This document shows positions 47,345 to 60,879 of a stretch of 64,000 bases of DNA, one piece after another. The stretch spans positions 2,418,001 through 2,482,000 of the forward strand of contig NZ_CP063785.1 of assembly GCF_025860405.1 (NCBI RefSeq). Direction: 5' to 3'. Numbering within the stretch: position 1 is the first letter of the stretch; every line of letters begins with the position of its first letter. The notes beneath the pieces are model-generated. The model was not told where the DNA came from. It saw nothing but the letters and a program-made list of their open reading frames with translations, and did no database searches. Made by a program: the position numbers and the translations under genes. Source of the DNA: Tolypothrix sp. PCC 7712 (GTDB lineage: Bacteria > Cyanobacteriota > Cyanobacteriia > Cyanobacteriales > Nostocaceae).

Positions 47345-47443
47345 CGGGGATTGGGGATTGGGGATTAGGGGACTAGGGATTGGGGATTGGGGACTGGGAA
47401 GAAATAATTGTGATCCTTGACCCTTAACCCTTGACCCTTAACT
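47343..47443. repeat. GGGGATT and CTTGACC heptamer repeats
   Basis: About six GGGGATT/GGGGACT units (47347-47397) and then three CTTGACC/CTTAACC units (47415-47443) between the convergent rnhA and cruG genes. Confidence 0.88.
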
Positions 47444-48619
47444 ATACTTCCTTCCCCGCCACTCTTTAGGAGTGCGGAATGCAGATAGAAAGATTCGCAG
47501 CACAGCTAGAGGATCGGCTAGGGGTGAAAGCCAGAATAACCAGCCGCCTTTAGCAGTTGTGCGATCATAGGAAGGTGCGATCGCCAGTAACATTGCAAAG
47601 CGAATTACTAACAGAAATATATTTAGTCCTAATAACAAATTCAAAGGAAGCAGGGAAGGCTGGGGAAATAGGAGAGCCAGCAAACCGTAACTAAGTAAAA
47701 TTAGTAGGGGTAAACCTTGCACTGCTGAAAGTAGCCATAAATCTCCCCAAATCTGAGCGCGGGGTGATGCGTCTTTTAAGTCGAGGCTGCGTCCCCATTC
47801 TTTCCATGTCTCGATTGCACCCTCATACATCCGCACCTTTAGCACCTTCGCGCCATCTAAAAAGCCTACTTTAAAACCTTGAGCAGCAATATATCGAGCT
47901 AAGGTAACATCATCACAAAATGAACCACTAGCGCTGGTATAACCATCTACAGCAGCTAAAACCGAACGCCGACATAAAAAGCATTGACCATTAGCCATTA
48001 CCCTTTCTGGCTGTTCTGTATTCACACCAGCCGGATCGAATCGATACAGCAGAGTCATTAACAAAGCAGGCTGTAACAAACATTCCCCTGGATATTTAAG
48101 AATAAACTGAGGTGAAAGCGATACCAAGTCATAACCTTGGGCTTTGGCTGTCTGCACTAAACCAGCAACTAAACCAGGATGGGGTACAGTATCAGCATCC
48201 ATCCCTAAAAACCATTCACTCTCTGAGGAACTCTGCAAAAAGCCATTATGTAACGCCCAAGGACGACCAACCCAACCAGGGGGTAGAGGATCGTCTGTAA
48301 ATACACGAAAACGGGGGTCTTGCTGTTGCGCGGCTTTGACTAATTCTGGCGTACCATCTTGCGACCTGCTATCTACAACGATCGCTTCCCTAACTTCATA
48401 ACTTTGTTTACTTAACCCAGTTAACAACGGGCTAATACGCGCAGCCTCATTCAGTGTTGGCACCACAACGCTGACATTACCCAAAATATCCGGTGTCGGC
48501 TGTTGTGGTTGAATCGGCGGATGGCGTGTCGGCCCTTTAAATAATCTTGAAAGTAGAATCGCTGTTGCTGGTATTTGCAGTAATAGTAATAACAGCGATA
48601 GGTTACTAACTAAAATCAA
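47438..48619 (-). CDS. cruG: CruG-like family 2 glycosyltransferase
   Basis: A 393-residue membrane-associated glycosyltransferase. An N-terminal TM segment is followed by a GT2 domain (SVVVPTLNEAARISPLL, DSRSQDGTPELV, GMDADTVPHPGLVAGL) and C-terminal TM segments (LPLLILLSYGLLALLF, LLGLNIFLLVIRFAMLLAI). With the DUF422 gene just upstream this matches the cyanobacterial cruF-cruG pair, in which CruG adds the sugar at the 2'-hydroxyl of myxol. The start is TTG with AGGAG seven bases before it. Confidence 0.85.
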   Translation of the reverse strand: MILVSNLSLLLLLLQIPATAILLSRLFKGPTRHPPIQPQQPTPDILGNVSVVVPTLNEAARISPLLTGLSKQSYEVREAIVVDSRSQDGTPELVKAAQQQDPRFRVFTDDPLPPGWVGRPWALHNGFLQSSSESEWFLGMDADTVPHPGLVAGLVQTAKAQGYDLVSLSPQFILKYPGECLLQPALLMTLLYRFDPAGVNTEQPERVMANGQCFLCRRSVLAAVDGYTSASGSFCDDVTLARYIAAQGFKVGFLDGAKVLKVRMYEGAIETWKEWGRSLDLKDASPRAQIWGDLWLLSAVQGLPLLILLSYGLLALLFPQPSLLPLNLLLGLNIFLLVIRFAMLLAIAPSYDRTTAKGGWLFWLSPLADPLAVLRIFLSAFRTPKEWRGRKYS

Positions 48620-48757: not shown

Positions 48758-49663
48758 CTACTTCAAAGCAACTTTGACATTTGCCACTGAAATTTCCTGA
48801 GTTGCAGGTTCGATCGCCACAGATTGTCCATTTGAACCTTGCCACCAAAGTGCTACAGCTGGAGCAACACCTGTTAAAAAGCCAAGCAATACAGGGATAG
48901 AGAAGCCAGCAGCCAAACTCATCACCGTAGCAAAGGTGAAATTGCCTAAATAAACTATCAAAGGCAAATTGAGTTGCGATCGCTCTAATTTAATGGGGTT
49001 GTTTCTCCAGAGGAATGCTGCCACAGTCATAAATAGCGCCCCTGTTCCCATCCAGCCAGCAAAGTTTTGGTAAGGCATACCAAAGAATGGGCCTGGTTGT
49101 TGCCAATACCAGAAGGGGAGAGAGGTTTGGCTCATTGCTGGATCTAAGACAAAATCCCAAGAGGTCAATAATAAAGCACCTAATGCGATCGCACCTATAT
49201 GACGCAACAAGCTGGGCTTTTTGTCTACTTCTAAGCCAGCACGTGCTAACAGGTAAGAAACACATCCCACATAAAACCACGATAAGGGAATTGTGAAGGG
49301 AACTAAACCAGCAATTTTATAGCCCAGTCCACTGAGGTAACTATAGTGCCCAAAAGGAAAGCCAGTGCTGGTTCCCGACAGTTCGCTTCCTAAGGAAATA
49401 AACACTGATGGCAGCAAAAATGCCAAAGCGCGACCCAATCCCAACGTCCGGTAGGCATACAAAAAGACAGCCGCTGCGCCCAAAATCATATAAACAACAC
49501 CGCCTCCAGCCATACTCCACTGCATGGCGGTTTGCCCAACCTCAGTTAGGTTCATAATAATTTCCGCATTCGGCACAACTAGTAGTATGCCTACAAGTCC
49601 AAACACCATCGACACGATATGACCAATCAGGCATACGCGCTCAACAATAACAAGTTGTCTCAT
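48758..49663 (-). CDS. cruF: Carotenoid 1',2'-hydratase (CruF, DUF422)
   Basis: A 301-residue integral membrane protein with about seven to eight TM segments and the DUF422 core (FLLPSVFISLGSELSGTSTGFPFGHY, PFTIPLSWFYVGCVSYLLAR, TSWDFVLDPAMSQT, PFFGMPYQNFAGWMGTGALF). CruF hydrates the psi end of gamma-carotene in myxoxanthophyll synthesis. Position immediately upstream of the cruG-like gene on the same strand supports the assignment; the two are probably cotranscribed across a repeat-filled spacer. Confidence 0.9.
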   Translation of the reverse strand: MRQLVIVERVCLIGHIVSMVFGLVGILLVVPNAEIIMNLTEVGQTAMQWSMAGGGVVYMILGAAAVFLYAYRTLGLGRALAFLLPSVFISLGSELSGTSTGFPFGHYSYLSGLGYKIAGLVPFTIPLSWFYVGCVSYLLARAGLEVDKKPSLLRHIGAIALGALLLTSWDFVLDPAMSQTSLPFWYWQQPGPFFGMPYQNFAGWMGTGALFMTVAAFLWRNNPIKLERSQLNLPLIVYLGNFTFATVMSLAAGFSIPVLLGFLTGVAPAVALWWQGSNGQSVAIEPATQEISVANVKVALK

Positions 49664-51992: not shown

Positions 51993-52313
51993 TTAACGAT
52001 TAGCAAATACTAATAAGAAACAACTACCATTTAATAAAGCTGTAATCACAGCACCAATAATTACACCTTTCATCATTGCTAGGCGCTGTTGTCTTCTGAG
52101 CAAAATGCATAAAGGGATGACATATAAAAGCTGCCAAATAAAAAATCCCCAACCGCCAATCAGCCAAACACCTAAATAACTATAATTAGCATAGCCAAAT
52201 ATTTGAGCAGCGAGTAAACCTACTCCAAATATGATGCCTACTGCTATCAAATGCAAACCAAATAAAATTAATATTCCTAAAAAAATCTGTAAATTTTCAT
52301 TCCTTTGAGACAT
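51993..52313 (-). CDS. Small membrane protein of the radical SAM/Lgt-like cassette
   Basis: A 106-residue protein with three hydrophobic segments (about 8-40, 45-71, 78-104) and almost no soluble part. I do not recognise a family. It follows the radical SAM gene by 37 bases on the same strand, so it is probably the third gene of that operon. Confidence 0.65.
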   Translation of the reverse strand: MSQRNENLQIFLGILILFGLHLIAVGIIFGVGLLAAQIFGYANYSYLGVWLIGGWGFFIWQLLYVIPLCILLRRQQRLAMMKGVIIGAVITALLNGSCFLLVFANR

Positions 52314-52350
52314 TAATTGAGTCCTGTAGATGACACTTGATAAATTAGAT

Positions 52351-53769
52351 TTACGAATTACGATGATTCACTAAATGGTAGCCAGCGCTGCCTTCGCGAT
52401 AAAACATATTAAATGTATCAAATGGAATAATCCTACCATCTGGATGCACAATATGAATACAAGACCGCTTAACAGAACGGACATCAAAGTTAAAAGCATC
52501 AAGAAACTGCACAATCATTACCCGAAATACATTGGAGTAGTTAATACCTTCTGGTACAGCAATCATTGGCAAACAACACAAAAGCTGCTTGAGCGATAAA
52601 GCGGCAGATTTGGGTGAATGACTTGTTGAAAATAATTCAAATATTTGTTTTTTCAGTTCTTCATTTTGTTCATAAAGCACGCTATTGGGCATAATTTTCA
52701 CAAAAACATCTGGATTAATTAACCCAGTTAATGGTATTACTTGACCATTTAGTTTTAATGCATAAGTCATAGCTAAAGAATCAGGATGGCAGGGAACAGG
52801 GAGAATATCTTCAGGTTTAAAATAAGGACTCTGTTCTAAAATGGAGCGTCGGACTTCGGTTAAAGTATATCTATCTCGTTTAGGGTCAAATCCTTCTAAT
52901 CTTCCTGCTGCTTGTATTGGTTGAAATGTCACGCCTCGAATACATTTCTGCTGCAAAGCATACTCAATAATTTTGCCAATCTCACAATCGTTCAGTCCCT
53001 TTTTGAGAGTGACAACTAAAGTTGTAGAAATATTATATTCATTGAGATGCTCAATTGCTTTTTGCCTAACTGCCCGTAAATCTGCACCGCGTAACTCTTT
53101 TAACGCGTCTAATTCAAAGCTATCAAATTGCAAATATATCTCAATTCCTGGCATATATTGGCTGAGGCGATCGCAAAAAGATTTATCCTTAGCAATCATT
53201 ACGCCATTGGTATTGATCATTAAATGCTTAATCGGCTTAGTTTTGACAATATCTAAAATTTGAAAAAACTCAGGATGAATCGTAGGTTCACCACCGCTTA
53301 ACTGCACTATCTGCGGTTCTCCTTCATTGGCGACAACCGCATCAATCATCTTTTCGATTTGCGCTAGACTCCGATGCAGTCTTGGTTGATGGGAGATTTC
53401 TGAAAATTCTTCTGCACCAGAATCGGCATAACATATTGGGCAAGAAAGATTACATTTATCTGTAACTTCAATTAATGTTAAACAGCTATGCTGTTCATGA
53501 TCTGGGCAAAGTCCGCAATCATAAGGACAGCCATATTTTATGGGTGTATTAAACTTTAATGGCATATCTCCAGGTTTGATAAACTCTAGAGATTTTTTAT
53601 AGTATTCAATATCATCCGCGATTAAAACTTCTTCTCGTCCGTGGGTGGGACAGTGTTTTACTAAGTAAACACAATCATCCTGAAATATAATTTTTGCTTC
53701 TACCTTGACTAAACATTTTGAACAAACACTATTAGTTAAGGCATAAAAGAGATAATTACGAGTAGGCAT
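52351..53769 (-). CDS. Radical SAM protein resembling tetraether lipid synthase (Tes) relatives
   Basis: A 472-residue radical SAM enzyme. The [4Fe-4S] motif is Cys106-x3-Cys110-x2-Cys113 (KCNLSCPICYADSG), followed by the SAM-binding QLSGGEPTIHPEF. Before it are two more Cys clusters: SVCSKCLVKVEA with HCPTHG (rubredoxin-like, Cys16/Cys19/Cys40) and YGCPYDCGLCPDHEQHSC (Cys81-96). That three-part cysteine layout is the one I know from archaeal Tes/MJ0619-type enzymes, which join or modify lipid chains or methylate. Substrate here is unknown. Neighbours on both sides are membrane proteins, one Lgt-like. Confidence 0.75.
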   Translation of the reverse strand: MPTRNYLFYALTNSVCSKCLVKVEAKIIFQDDCVYLVKHCPTHGREEVLIADDIEYYKKSLEFIKPGDMPLKFNTPIKYGCPYDCGLCPDHEQHSCLTLIEVTDKCNLSCPICYADSGAEEFSEISHQPRLHRSLAQIEKMIDAVVANEGEPQIVQLSGGEPTIHPEFFQILDIVKTKPIKHLMINTNGVMIAKDKSFCDRLSQYMPGIEIYLQFDSFELDALKELRGADLRAVRQKAIEHLNEYNISTTLVVTLKKGLNDCEIGKIIEYALQQKCIRGVTFQPIQAAGRLEGFDPKRDRYTLTEVRRSILEQSPYFKPEDILPVPCHPDSLAMTYALKLNGQVIPLTGLINPDVFVKIMPNSVLYEQNEELKKQIFELFSTSHSPKSAALSLKQLLCCLPMIAVPEGINYSNVFRVMIVQFLDAFNFDVRSVKRSCIHIVHPDGRIIPFDTFNMFYREGSAGYHLVNHRNS

Positions 53770-53890
53770 AATAAATAAATTTGTAAGTTGTTACTAGGCT
53801 AAACGCGATGCCAAACAAGCAAGATTTATGGATTTCATATAGCGTACTGAAAAACTATTTTTATTCAGAGTTTCTGAATTTAAAGGTAAA

Positions 53891-54634
53891 TCAGTTGTGA
53901 AATTGAAATATCTGAGAGATGGTGTGGCGATAATACACAATAGTTAATAAACAAGCCACTTGAATTGCACTTAAGCCCCAGAAAGGATGAAAATCAGGTT
54001 TAATGAAATCTACCAGAAAACGAAAGCTAAAATAAGAAATTAAATAAAATTTAAATAAATCACCATTTTGATATTGATAGCGACTGCGAAATTGCAAAAA
54101 TATAATTAGCAACCCTAAAAATAAGATTTCATATAACTGTGTGGGATGGCGGAAAATACCATCGCCAAAATCTATACCCCACGGTAATTTTGTGGCGATT
54201 CCATAAGTGCGATCGCTCAATCCCGTGAGAAAGCATCCAATTCTACCAATGGCTGTGCCAACAATCAGAGGATAAACAAATACATCACCTGTAGACTGAT
54301 GAATGCCAATAATTTTTTTAGTAAGTTCTACACCAATTAACCCGCCTAAAAGTGCCCCAACGACTGTTTTACCCTGGAGTAATAGTAATAGAAACTGCTG
54401 TTGATTTTGCCAAATCAAATCAATATGTTCCACCCCTACCAGAAGTTTTGCTCCCATTAAAGCGCCTATCATACCGCCAACAATTACAGAACTGCGCTGG
54501 CTAGGTGCGATCGCATCTTTGCGAAGCCGAAATATTAACAAACGAAATGCTACTGCATAAGCTAAAGATTCAAATAAAATATGAGGATGAATTCGCAAAG
54601 AACCCAACCAAATATAAACAGGGAAATTCAGCAT
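53891..54634 (-). CDS. Lgt-like membrane protein, divergent paralogue
   Basis: A 247-residue protein with about seven TM segments and the fold order of prolipoprotein diacylglyceryl transferase: IRIHPHILFESLAYA-like start, GKTVVGALLGGLIGVE, GRIGCFLTGLSDRTYG, GIFRHPTQLYEI. In true Lgt the signature is GRxGNFxNxE; here the essential Asn is Cys and the following Asn and Glu are Thr and Leu, while the Arg and the RHPxQLYE motif stay. So it may bind a phospholipid but act on something other than prolipoproteins. It lies directly upstream of the radical SAM gene. Confidence 0.8.
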   Translation of the reverse strand: MLNFPVYIWLGSLRIHPHILFESLAYAVAFRLLIFRLRKDAIAPSQRSSVIVGGMIGALMGAKLLVGVEHIDLIWQNQQQFLLLLLQGKTVVGALLGGLIGVELTKKIIGIHQSTGDVFVYPLIVGTAIGRIGCFLTGLSDRTYGIATKLPWGIDFGDGIFRHPTQLYEILFLGLLIIFLQFRSRYQYQNGDLFKFYLISYFSFRFLVDFIKPDFHPFWGLSAIQVACLLTIVYYRHTISQIFQFHN

Positions 54635-54877: not shown

Positions 54878-55420
54878 CTACTTCAGCAACATCATGATTT
54901 CGTCACACCAAGCTAGCCAGCCCATTTCGTAGTGAATTCCTTTCAGCAACGTCATGTACTGGAACTTGAGGGTATTTGATAAATCTTGCGGATTCTGGAA
55001 GTACTGGTTCTGAATTTCTTGATAGATTGCTAATCGCTGCTGATGTTGCCGACGATGCACTTCCAGCTTGGCTACTATCGTTTGCTGCGGTACTAGATGC
55101 CCAGCATAAAGTTTTAACAGCAATTCATCTTTGAGGGGTGCCATTTCCTCAGATTCAGCAATCCACTCACATAACTGCTGTTTACCTAACGCCGTCACAC
55201 TATATATCCGTTTGTCGGGTCGATTTTCTTGCTGTACAGATTCAGCTTGCAGCCATTCCTTTTGTTCTAAGCGGTTCAGTTCTCGATAAATCTGTTGAAA
55301 ACTGGCACTCCAGAAAAAACCAACCGACCCTTCTACCGAGGGGTTAAAACGCTTGGCAAGGTCATAGCCGCTACTAGGGGCGCTAACTAAGACCGACAAA
55401 ATGGCATAGGTAAGAGACAT
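54878..55420 (-). CDS. PadR-family transcriptional regulator
   Basis: A 180-residue repressor. The N-terminal winged helix is MSLTYAILSVLVSAPSSGYDLAKRF, FQQIYRELNRLEQKEWL, RIYSVTALGKQQL, and the C-terminal half is the helical Vir_act_alpha_C dimerisation domain (HRRQHQQRLAIYQEIQNQY). PadR proteins respond to phenolic or other small molecules and repress a divergent gene. The divergent gene here is broken, and a large palindrome lies between the two. Confidence 0.92.
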   Translation of the reverse strand: MSLTYAILSVLVSAPSSGYDLAKRFNPSVEGSVGFFWSASFQQIYRELNRLEQKEWLQAESVQQENRPDKRIYSVTALGKQQLCEWIAESEEMAPLKDELLLKLYAGHLVPQQTIVAKLEVHRRQHQQRLAIYQEIQNQYFQNPQDLSNTLKFQYMTLLKGIHYEMGWLAWCDEIMMLLK

Positions 55421-58390: not shown

Positions 58391-58852
58391 AAATTCTCAG
58401 TTCTCTGCTATTTTCCCTAGTTCACTTCACATCTGCTTGCGCGTAACTGCTATTCAGTTCGATTACAACGGCGACTTCATCGATCAATTCTCCCGGAAGT
58501 CGAAGCAGTTACTCAAAAATTAAACACAATTCTAGTGAATGGTTTTTATTGTTTCTACGATTACAAAATTATCTCTGTTTTTGTGATTTTTTTATATCAA
58601 TTTCAATCACATTTTTTTAAACAAAATATTTGATGTTTAACATTTATTTATAAACTGCAATAATTCACTACAAAAAATGTTAATTAATTCCGAAAGTCAA
58701 TATCTGTATAGACTCTGTTCTTTACAAAAATAAGTTTGAACCGAGAATAACTGTAATTTTACTGTGATTTATAGCCAACCTAATGGCTTTTAAAGGCGCA
58801 ATGAATGAACATATATTCATTTTGTAAAAATACGGAAGGTGAATAGTGGATT
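58391..58852. other. AT-rich upstream region of glgP
   Basis: About 460 bases; contains the glgP promoter. Strongly AT-rich between 58540 and 58720. No gene, repeat or clear hairpin is seen. Confidence 0.5.
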
Positions 58853-59230
58853 TTGATACTGGATTGCGAGCGATCGCCTTCACAACTCCATCATTGCACT
58901 TCAAAACAGAAAACTTCGCACTCCAAAGTCAAGCGATCGCCTTCACAATCTCATCATTCCACCTCAAAACAGGAAATTTCTCGTTCCAAAGTCAAGCGAT
59001 CGCCTTTACAACTCCATCATTCCACCCCAGAACAAGAATATTCTCGTTCTAAAGTCAAGCGATCGCCTTCACAACCCCATCATTCACCTTTAGAACAGGA
59101 ACATTCTCGTTTGGAACAAGAACGTTCTCGTTTAAAACACGAAAATTCTCAATTGGAACTGAAACATTCTCGTTTGGAACAGGAAACTTTGAGTTCAGAA
59201 CACGAAACTTGGAGATTAAAGCTTGATTGA
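58853..59230 (+). repeat. 63-bp HIP1-containing tandem repeat with open frame
   Basis: Four 63-bp units each starting GCGATCGCCTT (58870, 58936, 58993, 59059), followed by 21-bp units (GAACAGGAACATTCTCGTTTG type). One frame stays open for 125 codons, reading 21-residue repeats (KVKRSPSQ...HHSTSKQE) that pass into heptads (LEQERSRLKHENSQ). There is no ribosome-binding site and the start would be TTG. I treat it as a minisatellite whose unit is a multiple of three; a coiled-coil product is possible. Confidence 0.7.
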
Positions 59231-59250: not shown

Positions 59251-60879
59251 TTACTTTTCTGAGGCGAGGCGATCGCTAAGAAATGCTAAATTGTCACGCA
59301 CAGTAATAGTATTGGGATGATTTATCCCTAAAGTCTGCTCACAAATATCTAAAGCTTGCAGATACAGGGGTTCGGCTTCGCTGTATTTTCCTTGGGATTT
59401 GTAGAGTGTAGCCAGATTGTTGAGGCTAGCAGCAACATCTGGATGTTTGTCACCTAGCAAGCGTCGCATGAGTGACAAAGCTTGCTGGTACAGGGGTTCG
59501 GCTTCGCTGTATTTTCCTTGGGATTCATAGAGTGTAGCCAGATTATTGAGGCTAGCAGCAACATCTGGATGTTCTTCACCCAGCAAGCGTCGCTTGAGTG
59601 ACAAAGCTTGCAAGTACAGGGGTTTGGCTTCGCTGTATCTTCCTTGGGATTTGTAGAGTACAGCCAGATTATTGAGGCTAGCAGCAACATCTGGATGTTC
59701 TTCACCCAGCAAGCGTTGCCTTAGTTCTAAAGATTTTTGATACAGGGGTTCGGCTTCGCTGTATTTTCCTTGGTAGTAGTAGAGTGCAGCCAGATTATTG
59801 AAGCTAGTAGCAACATCTGGATGTTCTTCACCCAGCAAGCGTTGCCTTAGTTCTAAAGATTTTTGATACAGAGGTTCGGCTTCGCTGTATCTGCCTTGGG
59901 ATTCATAGAGTAATGCTAGGTTATTGAGGCTAGCAGCAACAGCTGGATGTTCTTCACCCAACAAGAGTCGCCTTAGTTCTAAAGATTTTTGGTACAGGGG
60001 TTCGACTTCGCTGTATCTGCCTTGATAATCGTAAAGTAATGCTAAATTGTTGAGGCTGGTAGCTAAATCTCTCTCTAAACCTAATTCTTTTTGCAATTCT
60101 ACAGCTTTGCTTAAATACTCAATGCCTAATTCTTGCTCTTTCTTATAATCTTGACACTCACCCCGGTCGAGTCTTTTTCTATAAATATCTCCTAAGCTAA
60201 AGTATAAAGTCGCTAAATTTACATCCTTAACACCACGCTGTTCTAAATTTTGAATAAACCCTTGTAAATCTTCTATAGGCAACAAATAATCATTGTCATC
60301 ATCAAAACCAGAAATTTCATTATCCCGGAAAGCAAAACGAATCGCTTCTAAATCTCTACCAGCAACAGTATTTTTTCTTCTAGACACAAACCGAAAAACA
60401 CCATTGCGCCAACTCCAAAAATCAGGGGCTTTTTTAATTAACTCAACTAATATTTGATTAGTCACCCACAAGACAATGGCAAAAGGAAATGCCCTCAAAG
60501 CTTCCCTAGTCCACTGTAAATAACCGAAAAAAACCTCTTGTTCCGAACGTTCCTTGCCCAGTTTCAGAAAATGAAGCTGTTCTGCACCAGTCACCGTAAT
60601 TACTGCTGGTTGATTTTGCTGCAAATACTCTTCACTTCTGACTAATTGAGAAATAGCAGCCGTCAAACTCGGCTCATCCCTTGCCAATGTCACCCGATAA
60701 CAACGGATTTCCGGCTGTAATTCTGCTTCATACTCAGCAATAATTTCATCCCGAAAACTAGCATCATCACATACAGCAATTAGCAAATTTAACCGATTGG
60801 CTTTAGCCTCAATAGAAATAGTTAAAGAATCATAAGCATCTCTGTTGTCATCATCTGTCAGTAAATCTTCATTCATCAT
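59251..60879 (-). CDS. Degenerate NTPase-TPR protein of a two-gene ATPase cassette
   Basis: A 542-residue protein. The first 200 residues look like a STAND-type P-loop domain that has lost Walker A (LNLLIAVCDDASFRDE where the loop should be) but keeps a Walker-B-like PAVITVTGAEQL and the FPFAIVLWVTNQILVELIKKAPDFWSW segment. From about 245 onward come seven kinesin-light-chain-type TPRs of 42 residues (SLNNLAxLYxSQGxYSEAEPLYxxxLxL). The 126-bp DNA repeats are almost identical, so recent expansion is likely. Its start overlaps the stop of the ATPase gene (TAATG). Confidence 0.85.
   Translation of the reverse strand: MMNEDLLTDDDNRDAYDSLTISIEAKANRLNLLIAVCDDASFRDEIIAEYEAELQPEIRCYRVTLARDEPSLTAAISQLVRSEEYLQQNQPAVITVTGAEQLHFLKLGKERSEQEVFFGYLQWTREALRAFPFAIVLWVTNQILVELIKKAPDFWSWRNGVFRFVSRRKNTVAGRDLEAIRFAFRDNEISGFDDDNDYLLPIEDLQGFIQNLEQRGVKDVNLATLYFSLGDIYRKRLDRGECQDYKKEQELGIEYLSKAVELQKELGLERDLATSLNNLALLYDYQGRYSEVEPLYQKSLELRRLLLGEEHPAVAASLNNLALLYESQGRYSEAEPLYQKSLELRQRLLGEEHPDVATSFNNLAALYYYQGKYSEAEPLYQKSLELRQRLLGEEHPDVAASLNNLAVLYKSQGRYSEAKPLYLQALSLKRRLLGEEHPDVAASLNNLATLYESQGKYSEAEPLYQQALSLMRRLLGDKHPDVAASLNNLATLYKSQGKYSEAEPLYLQALDICEQTLGINHPNTITVRDNLAFLSDRLASEK

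Follow-up and report, generated by a model that had tools for sequence, protein, structure and literature searches.

A diverged Lgt-like protein, a Tes-like radical SAM enzyme and a small membrane protein with a near-invariant cysteine form a conserved bacterial cassette

The closest described relatives of the proteins reported here are prolipoprotein diacylglyceryl transferase (Lgt), in whose Escherichia coli form Asn146 is essential, and the lipid enzyme Tes/GDGT-MAS (MJ0619, structures 7tol and 7tom). We compared both with the products of a three-gene cassette from a 64,000-nucleotide stretch of Tolypothrix sp. PCC 7712, the whole of which is called the window below. The cassette encodes a diverged Lgt-like protein (LgtL), a Tes-like radical S-adenosylmethionine (SAM) protein and a small membrane protein (SMP). 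Concerning E. coli Lgt, the available part of PMC4728403 describes Arg143 and Arg239 as essential for transfer, a loss of function on changes of Arg143, His103, Tyr26 and several Gly residues, Asn146 as part of a buried hydrogen-bond network, the polar part of the cavity as lying on the periplasmic side, and a proposed binding of the peptide near His103.

Tes acts on membrane lipids, and its Met439 and Tyr459 variants are still active, according to the accessible portion of PMC9433317. Mss, a bacterial membrane-spanning lipid synthase, has been reported to share the catalytic architecture of Tes, and the available part of that report mentions no Lgt-like partner (PMC13274423). A dedicated, non-canonical lipidation of a lipobox-like peptide has been predicted for the Skillet-1 lipocone, which differs in belonging to another enzyme superfamily, in using Ser for Cys, and in that no radical SAM partner is named in the portion of the report available (PMC12419801). 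A literature search that was not exhaustive, and that does not show absence from print, found no published account of an Lgt-like/radical SAM pair. The features of the cassette in the window are as follows.

53891-54634, minus strand: LgtL gene, 247 residues, a membrane protein of predicted Lgt fold and a diverged paralogue of prolipoprotein diacylglyceryl transferase
54233..54235, minus strand: TGC codon of LgtL Cys134, equivalent to E. coli Lgt Asn146 (all 81 LgtL sequences have Cys here)
52351-53769, minus strand: Tes-like radical SAM gene, 472 residues, with a rubredoxin-type Zn ribbon, an N-terminal Cx3Cx2C..H cluster site, a CNLSCPIC radical SAM core and a C-terminal domain with invariant C327, C398, C399 and C437
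51993-52313, minus strand: SMP gene, 106 residues, hydrophobic, probable acceptor or partner, ending in ...ALLNGSCFLLVFANR
52020..52022, minus strand: TGT codon of SMP Cys98, which is near-invariant and lies at the predicted outward end of the last membrane helix

The three-gene cassette is real. An initial annotation of the sequence had described three genes running in one direction, and all three are open reading frames (ORFs) on the minus strand, transcribed in the order LgtL, a 121-bp gap, the radical SAM gene, a 37-bp gap and SMP. The host genome is 10.1 Mb in size, with cyanobacteria as its nearest named relatives. It also carries the separate, canonical lgt whose presence had been expected (G000:C1:6237041-6237790, 288.1 bits). 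The parts of the cassette are variants of known families.

LgtL matched the Pfam LGT family at 98.2 bits (cut-off 24.9) and fell far below the cut-offs of the lgt equivalogs (TIGR00544, 54.3 vs 118.9 bits; NF000778, 77.1 vs 334). An AlphaFold2 model with a mean pLDDT of 95.1 displayed the Lgt fold: against E. coli Lgt (5azb) the Z score was 13.8 over 238 residues, with 7.0 at rank 2 and a Foldseek E value of 1.6e-06. We then compared individual residues with those of the E. coli enzyme (5azb/5azc), whose positions were assigned by motif through the genome's own Lgt. The window protein contains the motifs GRIGCFLTGL and RHPTQLYE, in agreement with the initial annotation, which had noted the retained Arg and RHPxQLYE together with a Cys in place of the essential Asn. 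Among LgtL sequences, which have a mean pairwise identity of 47%, the equivalents of Arg143, Arg239 and Tyr235 are each invariant (81 of 81); those of Gly142, Gly145 and Gly154 and an HPxxLYE-type motif are also shared with Lgt. In contrast, the Asn146 equivalent is Cys in every sequence, Tyr26 is replaced by His (80 of 81), Arg246 by Lys (80 of 81) and His103 by Val (72 of 81), Met (5), Ile (2) or Leu (2). As Arg143, Arg239 and Tyr235 are kept while Tyr26, His103 and Asn146 are replaced, and taking into account the roles given in the part of PMC4728403 cited above, the donor side of LgtL looks kept and its acceptor side looks rebuilt. LgtL further differs from Lgt in being nearly always paired with the radical SAM gene, with the true Lgt encoded separately in the window's genome.

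The radical SAM protein possesses three N-terminal metal sites, Cx2C..Cx2H (residues 16, 19, 40 and 43), Cx3Cx2C..H (81, 85, 88 and 91) and Cx3Cx2C (106, 110 and 113), which are invariant in all 89 family rows and align with those of GDGT-MAS/Tes (7tol). This bears out the three-part Cys layout of Tes/MJ0619 type that had been recognized at the outset. The model of the protein superimposed on GDGT-MAS with a Z score of 43.9 over 399 residues at 2.3 Å, the next best score being 19.5; GDGT-MAS was the best, and the sole near-full-length, structural match among the matches listed, and sequence identity to its partial chain was 31%. The best NCBIfam profile was the radical SAM (seleno)protein TrsS (NF045646, 310.7 bits over residues 12-462, cut-off 490), and the Tes profile (NF045702) was matched at 275.3 bits, its cut-off being 450. 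In structure and in profiles alike, the protein is nearest to Tes and TrsS, and not to an unrelated characterized family. TrsS is the best-scoring profile, yet with a score below its cut-off the protein was rejected as a TrsS equivalog.

The resemblance to Tes comprises the rubredoxin-type and N-terminal cluster sites, the radical SAM Cys/His sites and, on the modelled structure, the fold. The C-terminal region is different. The Tyr459 column of Tes holds Tyr in 0 of 18 family rows, and Cys columns 436 and 451 hold Cys in 0 of 18, whereas column 437, common to Tes, is Cys in 18 of 18. The Met439 column is Met in 12 of 18 rows and Val in the window, where the residues at the Tes C-terminal signature positions are V420, S436, I440 and D451. 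In place of the lost residues, C327, C398 and C399 (each 89 of 89), as well as C437, are invariant in the family, whose mean pairwise identity is 65%. The C-terminal Cys residues of Tes are presumably cluster ligands. As C398 and C399 lie in a low-confidence stretch of the model (residues 351-407), a cluster geometry for them is unproven. True Tes was rejected on the grounds of the profile score and the missing C-terminal signature; the description of the protein as Tes-like therefore holds for the fold and the N-terminal sites, and not for identity with Tes itself. Since Tes variants at Met439 and Tyr459 were reported as active in the available part of PMC9433317, the loss of these residues leaves the Tes reaction possible.

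In a 27-row tree, a supported split (99/95) separated MJ0619 (partial), an Acidobacteria Tes-like pair and a haloarchaeal protein from the cassette family, which shared its side with actinobacterial and Mycolicibacterium vanbaalenii proteins; several branches were long. The Acidobacteria G405 and G394 each encode a separate Tes-like paralogue beside the cassette family (G405:C10:93312-94871 and G394:C88:4449-6014), in which the Tes Met, Tyr and Cys columns are kept and the N-terminal cluster Cys residues are absent. Judging from these residues, two kinds of Tes-like protein coexist in the two genomes.

The distribution of the two enzymes was then examined. One genome per species was scanned with a nine-sequence alignment, and the best 80 of at least that many loci were kept. 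They came from Cyanobacteria, Bacillota, Bacteroidota, Acidobacteriota, Planctomycetota, Verrucomicrobiota, Omnitrophota, Pseudomonadota, Myxococcota and Melainabacteria, with identities of 58-90%. LgtL was present inside the fetched flanks at 74 of 80 loci. At 72 of the 80 it preceded the radical SAM gene on the same strand, with at most about 1.2 kb from its end to that gene, a count that includes L111 (broken pieces) but not L036, with LgtL farther off, or L073, with LgtL downstream. The other six loci (L038, L090, L098, L101, L102 and L109) had a match elsewhere in the genome. Strong matches with the Cys motif (297-338 bits) were found in the genomes of L090, L102 and L109, the LgtL and radical SAM genes of L102 both standing at contig ends, and the genome of L038 gave a partial match at a contig start (187 bits). 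The genomes of L098 and L101 gave weak matches only (174 and 158 bits), with a different motif, GCFxNGCCYG. A further Lgt-like type (L121, L122 and L125, in genomes G388 and G389) carries Cys at the Asn146 position within the motif GCFxxGCCYG, and the radical SAM gene of these genomes stands without an adjoining LgtL.

Because a locus scan favours near relatives, evenly drawn genome samples were added, consisting of 386 genomes from the window's phylum, 198 from Bacteroidia and 299 from Bacilli (883 in total). The sample centres (G000, G396 and G395) were known beforehand to carry the pair and are included in the counts. The thresholds were E 1e-20 for the radical SAM protein and E 1e-50 for LgtL in the window's phylum, and E 1e-100 and E 1e-40, respectively, in Bacteroidia and Bacilli. 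In the window's phylum, 11 genomes harboured the radical SAM protein, one of these (G050) a distant relative, and LgtL was found in nine, all within the 11. Bacteroidia contained the radical SAM protein in 10 genomes, LgtL in 11 and both in 10, and in Bacilli the same 20 genomes contained each. In the pooled sample both enzymes occurred in 39 genomes, one in two (G004 and G481) and neither in 842. G050 is among the last, as its pieces (28-34% identity, genome 64% complete) are other Tes-like proteins and were left out of the family. By coordinates, the gap never exceeds 151 bp in the 20 Bacilli pairs, and the two genes of each of the 10 Bacteroidia pairs lie within about 600 bp of each other. 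In the window's phylum, eight of the nine LgtL matches adjoin a complete or fragmentary radical SAM gene; in the ninth (G030) LgtL is split, with a 72-residue piece beside the radical SAM gene and the best match on another contig. The partnership of LgtL and the radical SAM protein is near-obligate and beyond chance, and the linkage that had been anticipated is conserved across phyla. The lone LgtL of G481 (L168 6653-7498, 241 bits) may be a relic or have an independent function; no match to the TrsS profile was found in this genome, and no SMP was evident near the gene.

Among the recurrent clusters, inspected by eye from sequence starts, no other neighbour with a fixed place across phyla was found beside the three genes. 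The recurrent extra neighbours, again by eye among unannotated clusters present in at least three loci, were transporters, dehydrogenases, regulators and genus-level synteny. A scan of viral contigs identified no relatives.

The initial annotation had given the small membrane protein no role. At most loci a hydrophobic protein of about 59-165 residues is encoded downstream of the radical SAM gene on the same strand, 165 residues being the upper limit set for SMP ORFs; ORFs and helices were called with our own hydropathy and charge scripts. The window SMP had no Pfam or NCBIfam match at E 0.1, and a Pfam scan of ten homologues gave matches only below curated cut-offs. SMPs are highly variable (mean pairwise identity 21%), and yet one column, not mentioned in the initial annotation, is Cys in 74 of 77 rows, the next most uniform, start Met aside, reaching 73%. 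The alignment has 81 rows from 65 loci and includes wrong-frame ORFs. Three of the 74 Cys rows are probably wrong-frame (L093_1_69, L096_1_72 and L100_1_394) and were dropped to leave 71, in which more may remain. The 17 residues before the last helix have a mean net charge of +2.2 (74 rows; negative in four), the 15 residues before the Cys have a mean hydropathy of 2.0 (74 rows, three probably wrong-frame), and the tail after the Cys has a median length of nine residues (range 1-17). Two small residues (A, G, S or T) precede the Cys in 52 of 71. SMP thus has the geometry of a bacterial lipoprotein, with a positive inner side, a hydrophobic helix and a Cys at the predicted outer end, the placement of the Cys at the outer face following from the positive-inside rule. 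SMP genes are duplicated at up to eight of 63 loci, where some second copies may be wrong-frame. With its single near-invariant Cys, SMP is the likeliest acceptor.

Where SMP seemed to be missing, its helix-Cys junction usually recurs in an unrelated small protein. This is tail-anchored and encoded upstream of LgtL in some Paenibacillus and Saccharibacillus, and in Acidobacteria (three in L079) and deep relatives of the window's phylum (L027, L028 and L029) it is a protein with one N-terminal helix. Either helix-Cys form was present at 71 of 79 loci (L071, whose contig ends inside the radical SAM gene, was left out), as against 63 of 779 background zones (8%). The rule was loosened after inspection of misses, which makes the value of 71 of 79 in part post hoc; under the stricter rule applied first, 61 of 80 loci qualified, with 0.09 expected per zone. 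Either form was also found at eight of nine loci from the window's phylum (further background, 6 of 59 zones) and at nine of nine Bacteroidia loci, eight of them new and one (L171) repeating L107, with background zones at 0 of 0. Under the stricter rule, nine of 10 loci of this second set were positive (eight of nine Bacteroidia plus Persicobacter).

Further relatives were found on plasmids, where a protein search gave nine records. Mycobacterium avium pS2b (L165 3222-6542) and M. branderi pJCM12687 (L167 2352-5545) each carry a diverged cassette in which the gene for the Lgt-like protein is followed by two for small membrane proteins and these by the radical SAM gene. The actinobacterial plasmid radical SAM proteins show 28-32% identity and do not have the N-terminal Cx3Cx2C site. 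The Lgt-like proteins, annotated as 'prolipoprotein diacylglyceryl transferase family protein', have the motif GR[IL]GCHLTEAPG with the same Cys. The mycobacterial small proteins end in ...GICTGLNP.., ...GYCTGLNP.., ...GLCTGLNP.. and ...GVCTGLNP.., sharing the tail CTGLNPxxY, and Nonomuraea has the same arrangement with a single such protein, a 368-residue ORF with a long N-terminal extension and ..GICTGINP... These actinobacterial proteins were not used in finding the Cys pattern and are therefore out-of-sample. Persicobacter (54% radical SAM identity) fits the main family, whereas in M. vanbaalenii (38%) and in a haloarchaeon (29%) the neighbour is instead a methyltransferase, a different context that we take to be that of Trs. 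On the M. vanbaalenii plasmid (L163 3299-8339), the radical SAM gene stands beside genes for a methyltransferase, CcdA and a disulfide oxidoreductase, with a second radical SAM gene near.

Our preferred account, held tentatively and at somewhat less than an even chance, is that LgtL lipidates the SMP Cys and that the radical SAM enzyme alters the lipid chains, the three proteins making up a dedicated membrane system. With phosphatidylglycerol as donor, LgtL would transfer a diacylglyceryl or similar group, on the outer side of the cytoplasmic membrane, to the thiol of the SMP Cys, which is prolipoprotein-like in geometry but would be presented by an internal or C-terminal helix in which the lipobox is absent. 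From the cytosolic side, the radical SAM enzyme would work on the hydrocarbon chains of the lipid donor or of the product, by C-C coupling or another C-H functionalization such as sulfur insertion. A modified lipid would thereby come to be borne by a small membrane protein or, if this is cleaved, by a short peptide of about 10 residues. We infer transfer to a helix-end Cys from the fact that the junction is the sole visible commonality of the unrelated partners, together with the geometric need of Lgt. That the radical SAM enzyme acts on lipid chains is most likely by analogy, as its nearest structural kin do so in the available parts of the reports on Tes (PMC9433317) and Mss (PMC13274423).

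Several observations weigh against this account. Lipoboxes follow the pattern [LVI][ASTVI][GAS]C, and this canonical form occurs in 0 of 71 SMP sequences; with His103 also lost from LgtL, it is uncertain whether the acceptor is a peptide Cys. Conservation is far higher in the radical SAM protein than in SMP, an argument against the variable SMP as the substrate of this enzyme. On which face of the membrane the Cys lies is predicted from the positive-inside rule and homology. A helix-Cys protein is missing by the looser rule at eight of 79 loci: L038 is cut before the Cys at a contig end, L036 has masked bases, the Cys of L090 is not accompanied by a charged loop, the candidate ORFs of L072 and L076 are longer, L098 and L101 have nothing, and L061 is the eighth. 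As for the partnership itself, each enzyme occurs once without the other, the radical SAM protein in G004 and LgtL in G481, and G388 and G389 gave weak LgtL-like matches of 174 and 158 bits, respectively, with the motif GCFxNGCCYG.

We also considered the possibility, close to the initial annotation, that the cassette works on free lipids. The radical SAM enzyme would then couple or modify acyl chains of free phospholipids, LgtL would bind or remodel the phosphatidylglycerol head, and SMP would be a small subunit that serves in assembly or docking, with a structural or catalytic function for its Cys. We regard this as unlikely, though by no means negligible. The closest structures are GDGT-MAS and Lgt, Tes works on membrane lipids and Mss is reported to be of like architecture (PMC9433317 and PMC13274423, in the parts available), both enzymes are more conserved than SMP, and the Tes Met439 column is Met in most family rows, though Val in the window. 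Such a scheme leaves unexplained why a helix-end Cys is the sole near-invariant SMP residue, why the same junction recurs in unrelated proteins, and why SMP is duplicated at some loci. Quite unlikely, in our estimation, is a modification of the SMP polypeptide by the radical SAM enzyme, in the form of a cross-link or thioether at the Cys like those of ribosomally synthesized and post-translationally modified peptides, with LgtL adding lipid or aiding binding. SMP does resemble a precursor peptide in its tandem copies and in the short tail that follows its conserved Cys, and the peptide enzymes SuiB and SkfB are among the well-scoring radical SAM folds. Against this, a Pfam scan of 46 radical SAM members at E 0.001 found no SPASM domain, the nearest structural relative by a wide margin is a lipid enzyme, and the enzyme, expected to be cytosolic, would be across the membrane from the predicted outward-facing Cys.

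LgtL might instead be no transferase at all, its Cys134 and the SMP Cys forming a thiol/disulfide pair that senses redox state or relays it to the radical SAM enzyme. Both conserved Cys residues are predicted on the same membrane face, and the distant M. vanbaalenii relative adjoins CcdA and a disulfide oxidoreductase. Yet LgtL retains the phosphatidylglycerol-binding arginines (81 of 81) and most of the Lgt structural motifs, for which a scaffold would have no use, and no thiol-redox families were recognized by eye among the unannotated recurrent neighbour clusters; we consider this explanation improbable. As for ordinary lipoprotein maturation, in which LgtL would be a redundant Lgt with incidental neighbours, the Pfam LGT match above cut-off is in its favour. 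With the His103 and Asn146 equivalents replaced in all 81 sequences, a canonical lgt in the window's genome, no lipobox among the 71 SMPs and near-obligate linkage, this is very improbable, and LgtL as a redundant Lgt was rejected because of its replaced key residues. The initial annotation had proposed an enzyme set acting on membrane lipids or lipid-linked molecules, distinct from ordinary lipoprotein maturation. The cassette stands; the joined or methylated free acyl chains that it had in mind are one of several possible products.

If lipidation of SMP is true, protein lipidation would extend beyond lipobox signal peptides and be coupled to a radical chemistry of lipid tails. The full version of this proposal, a new protein lipidation in which a repurposed Lgt lipidates a helix-end Cys without a lipobox and the radical SAM enzyme edits or cross-links the chains, possibly bridging leaflets or releasing short lipopeptides, is more doubtful, and we put it forward as a possibility that is rather unlikely in this form. 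Its product would to our knowledge be without precedent as a protein-bound lipid that owes its structure to radical SAM chemistry, and it would occur in cyanobacteria, Bacilli, Bacteroidota, Acidobacteria, Planctomycetes and others, with a diverged form on actinobacterial plasmids. Because the acceptor is small and has a conserved Cys, mass spectrometry can test the model directly, and a helix-Cys protein beside LgtL and the radical SAM gene provides a search handle across phyla. Bacterial Tes homologues have been taken as possible signs of membrane-spanning lipids, as stated in the accessible portions of PMC8941075 and PMC11868695. Since the present family does not have part of the Tes signature and is tied to LgtL and a Cys peptide, some proteins labelled 'bacterial Tes' may differ in role.

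In the window, the cassette is flanked by genes for ribosomal proteins L21/L27, recognized by eye, and for a PadR-type regulator; these flanks did not recur among the neighbour clusters, which cover those present in at least three loci. The PadR-family gene (54878-55420, minus strand) lies just upstream of LgtL on the same strand, and regulation of the cassette by its product is possible. Two adjoining carotenoid genes on the minus strand scored above their NCBIfam cut-offs, CruF (gamma-carotene 1'-hydroxylase; 48758-49663, 495.9 bits) and CruG (2'-O-glycosyltransferase; 47438-48619, 686.9 bits). The region 58846-59230 looks repeat-rich by eye, its frames reading as short tandem motifs, and is situated upstream of an ORF that likewise appears tetratricopeptide-like (59251-60879).

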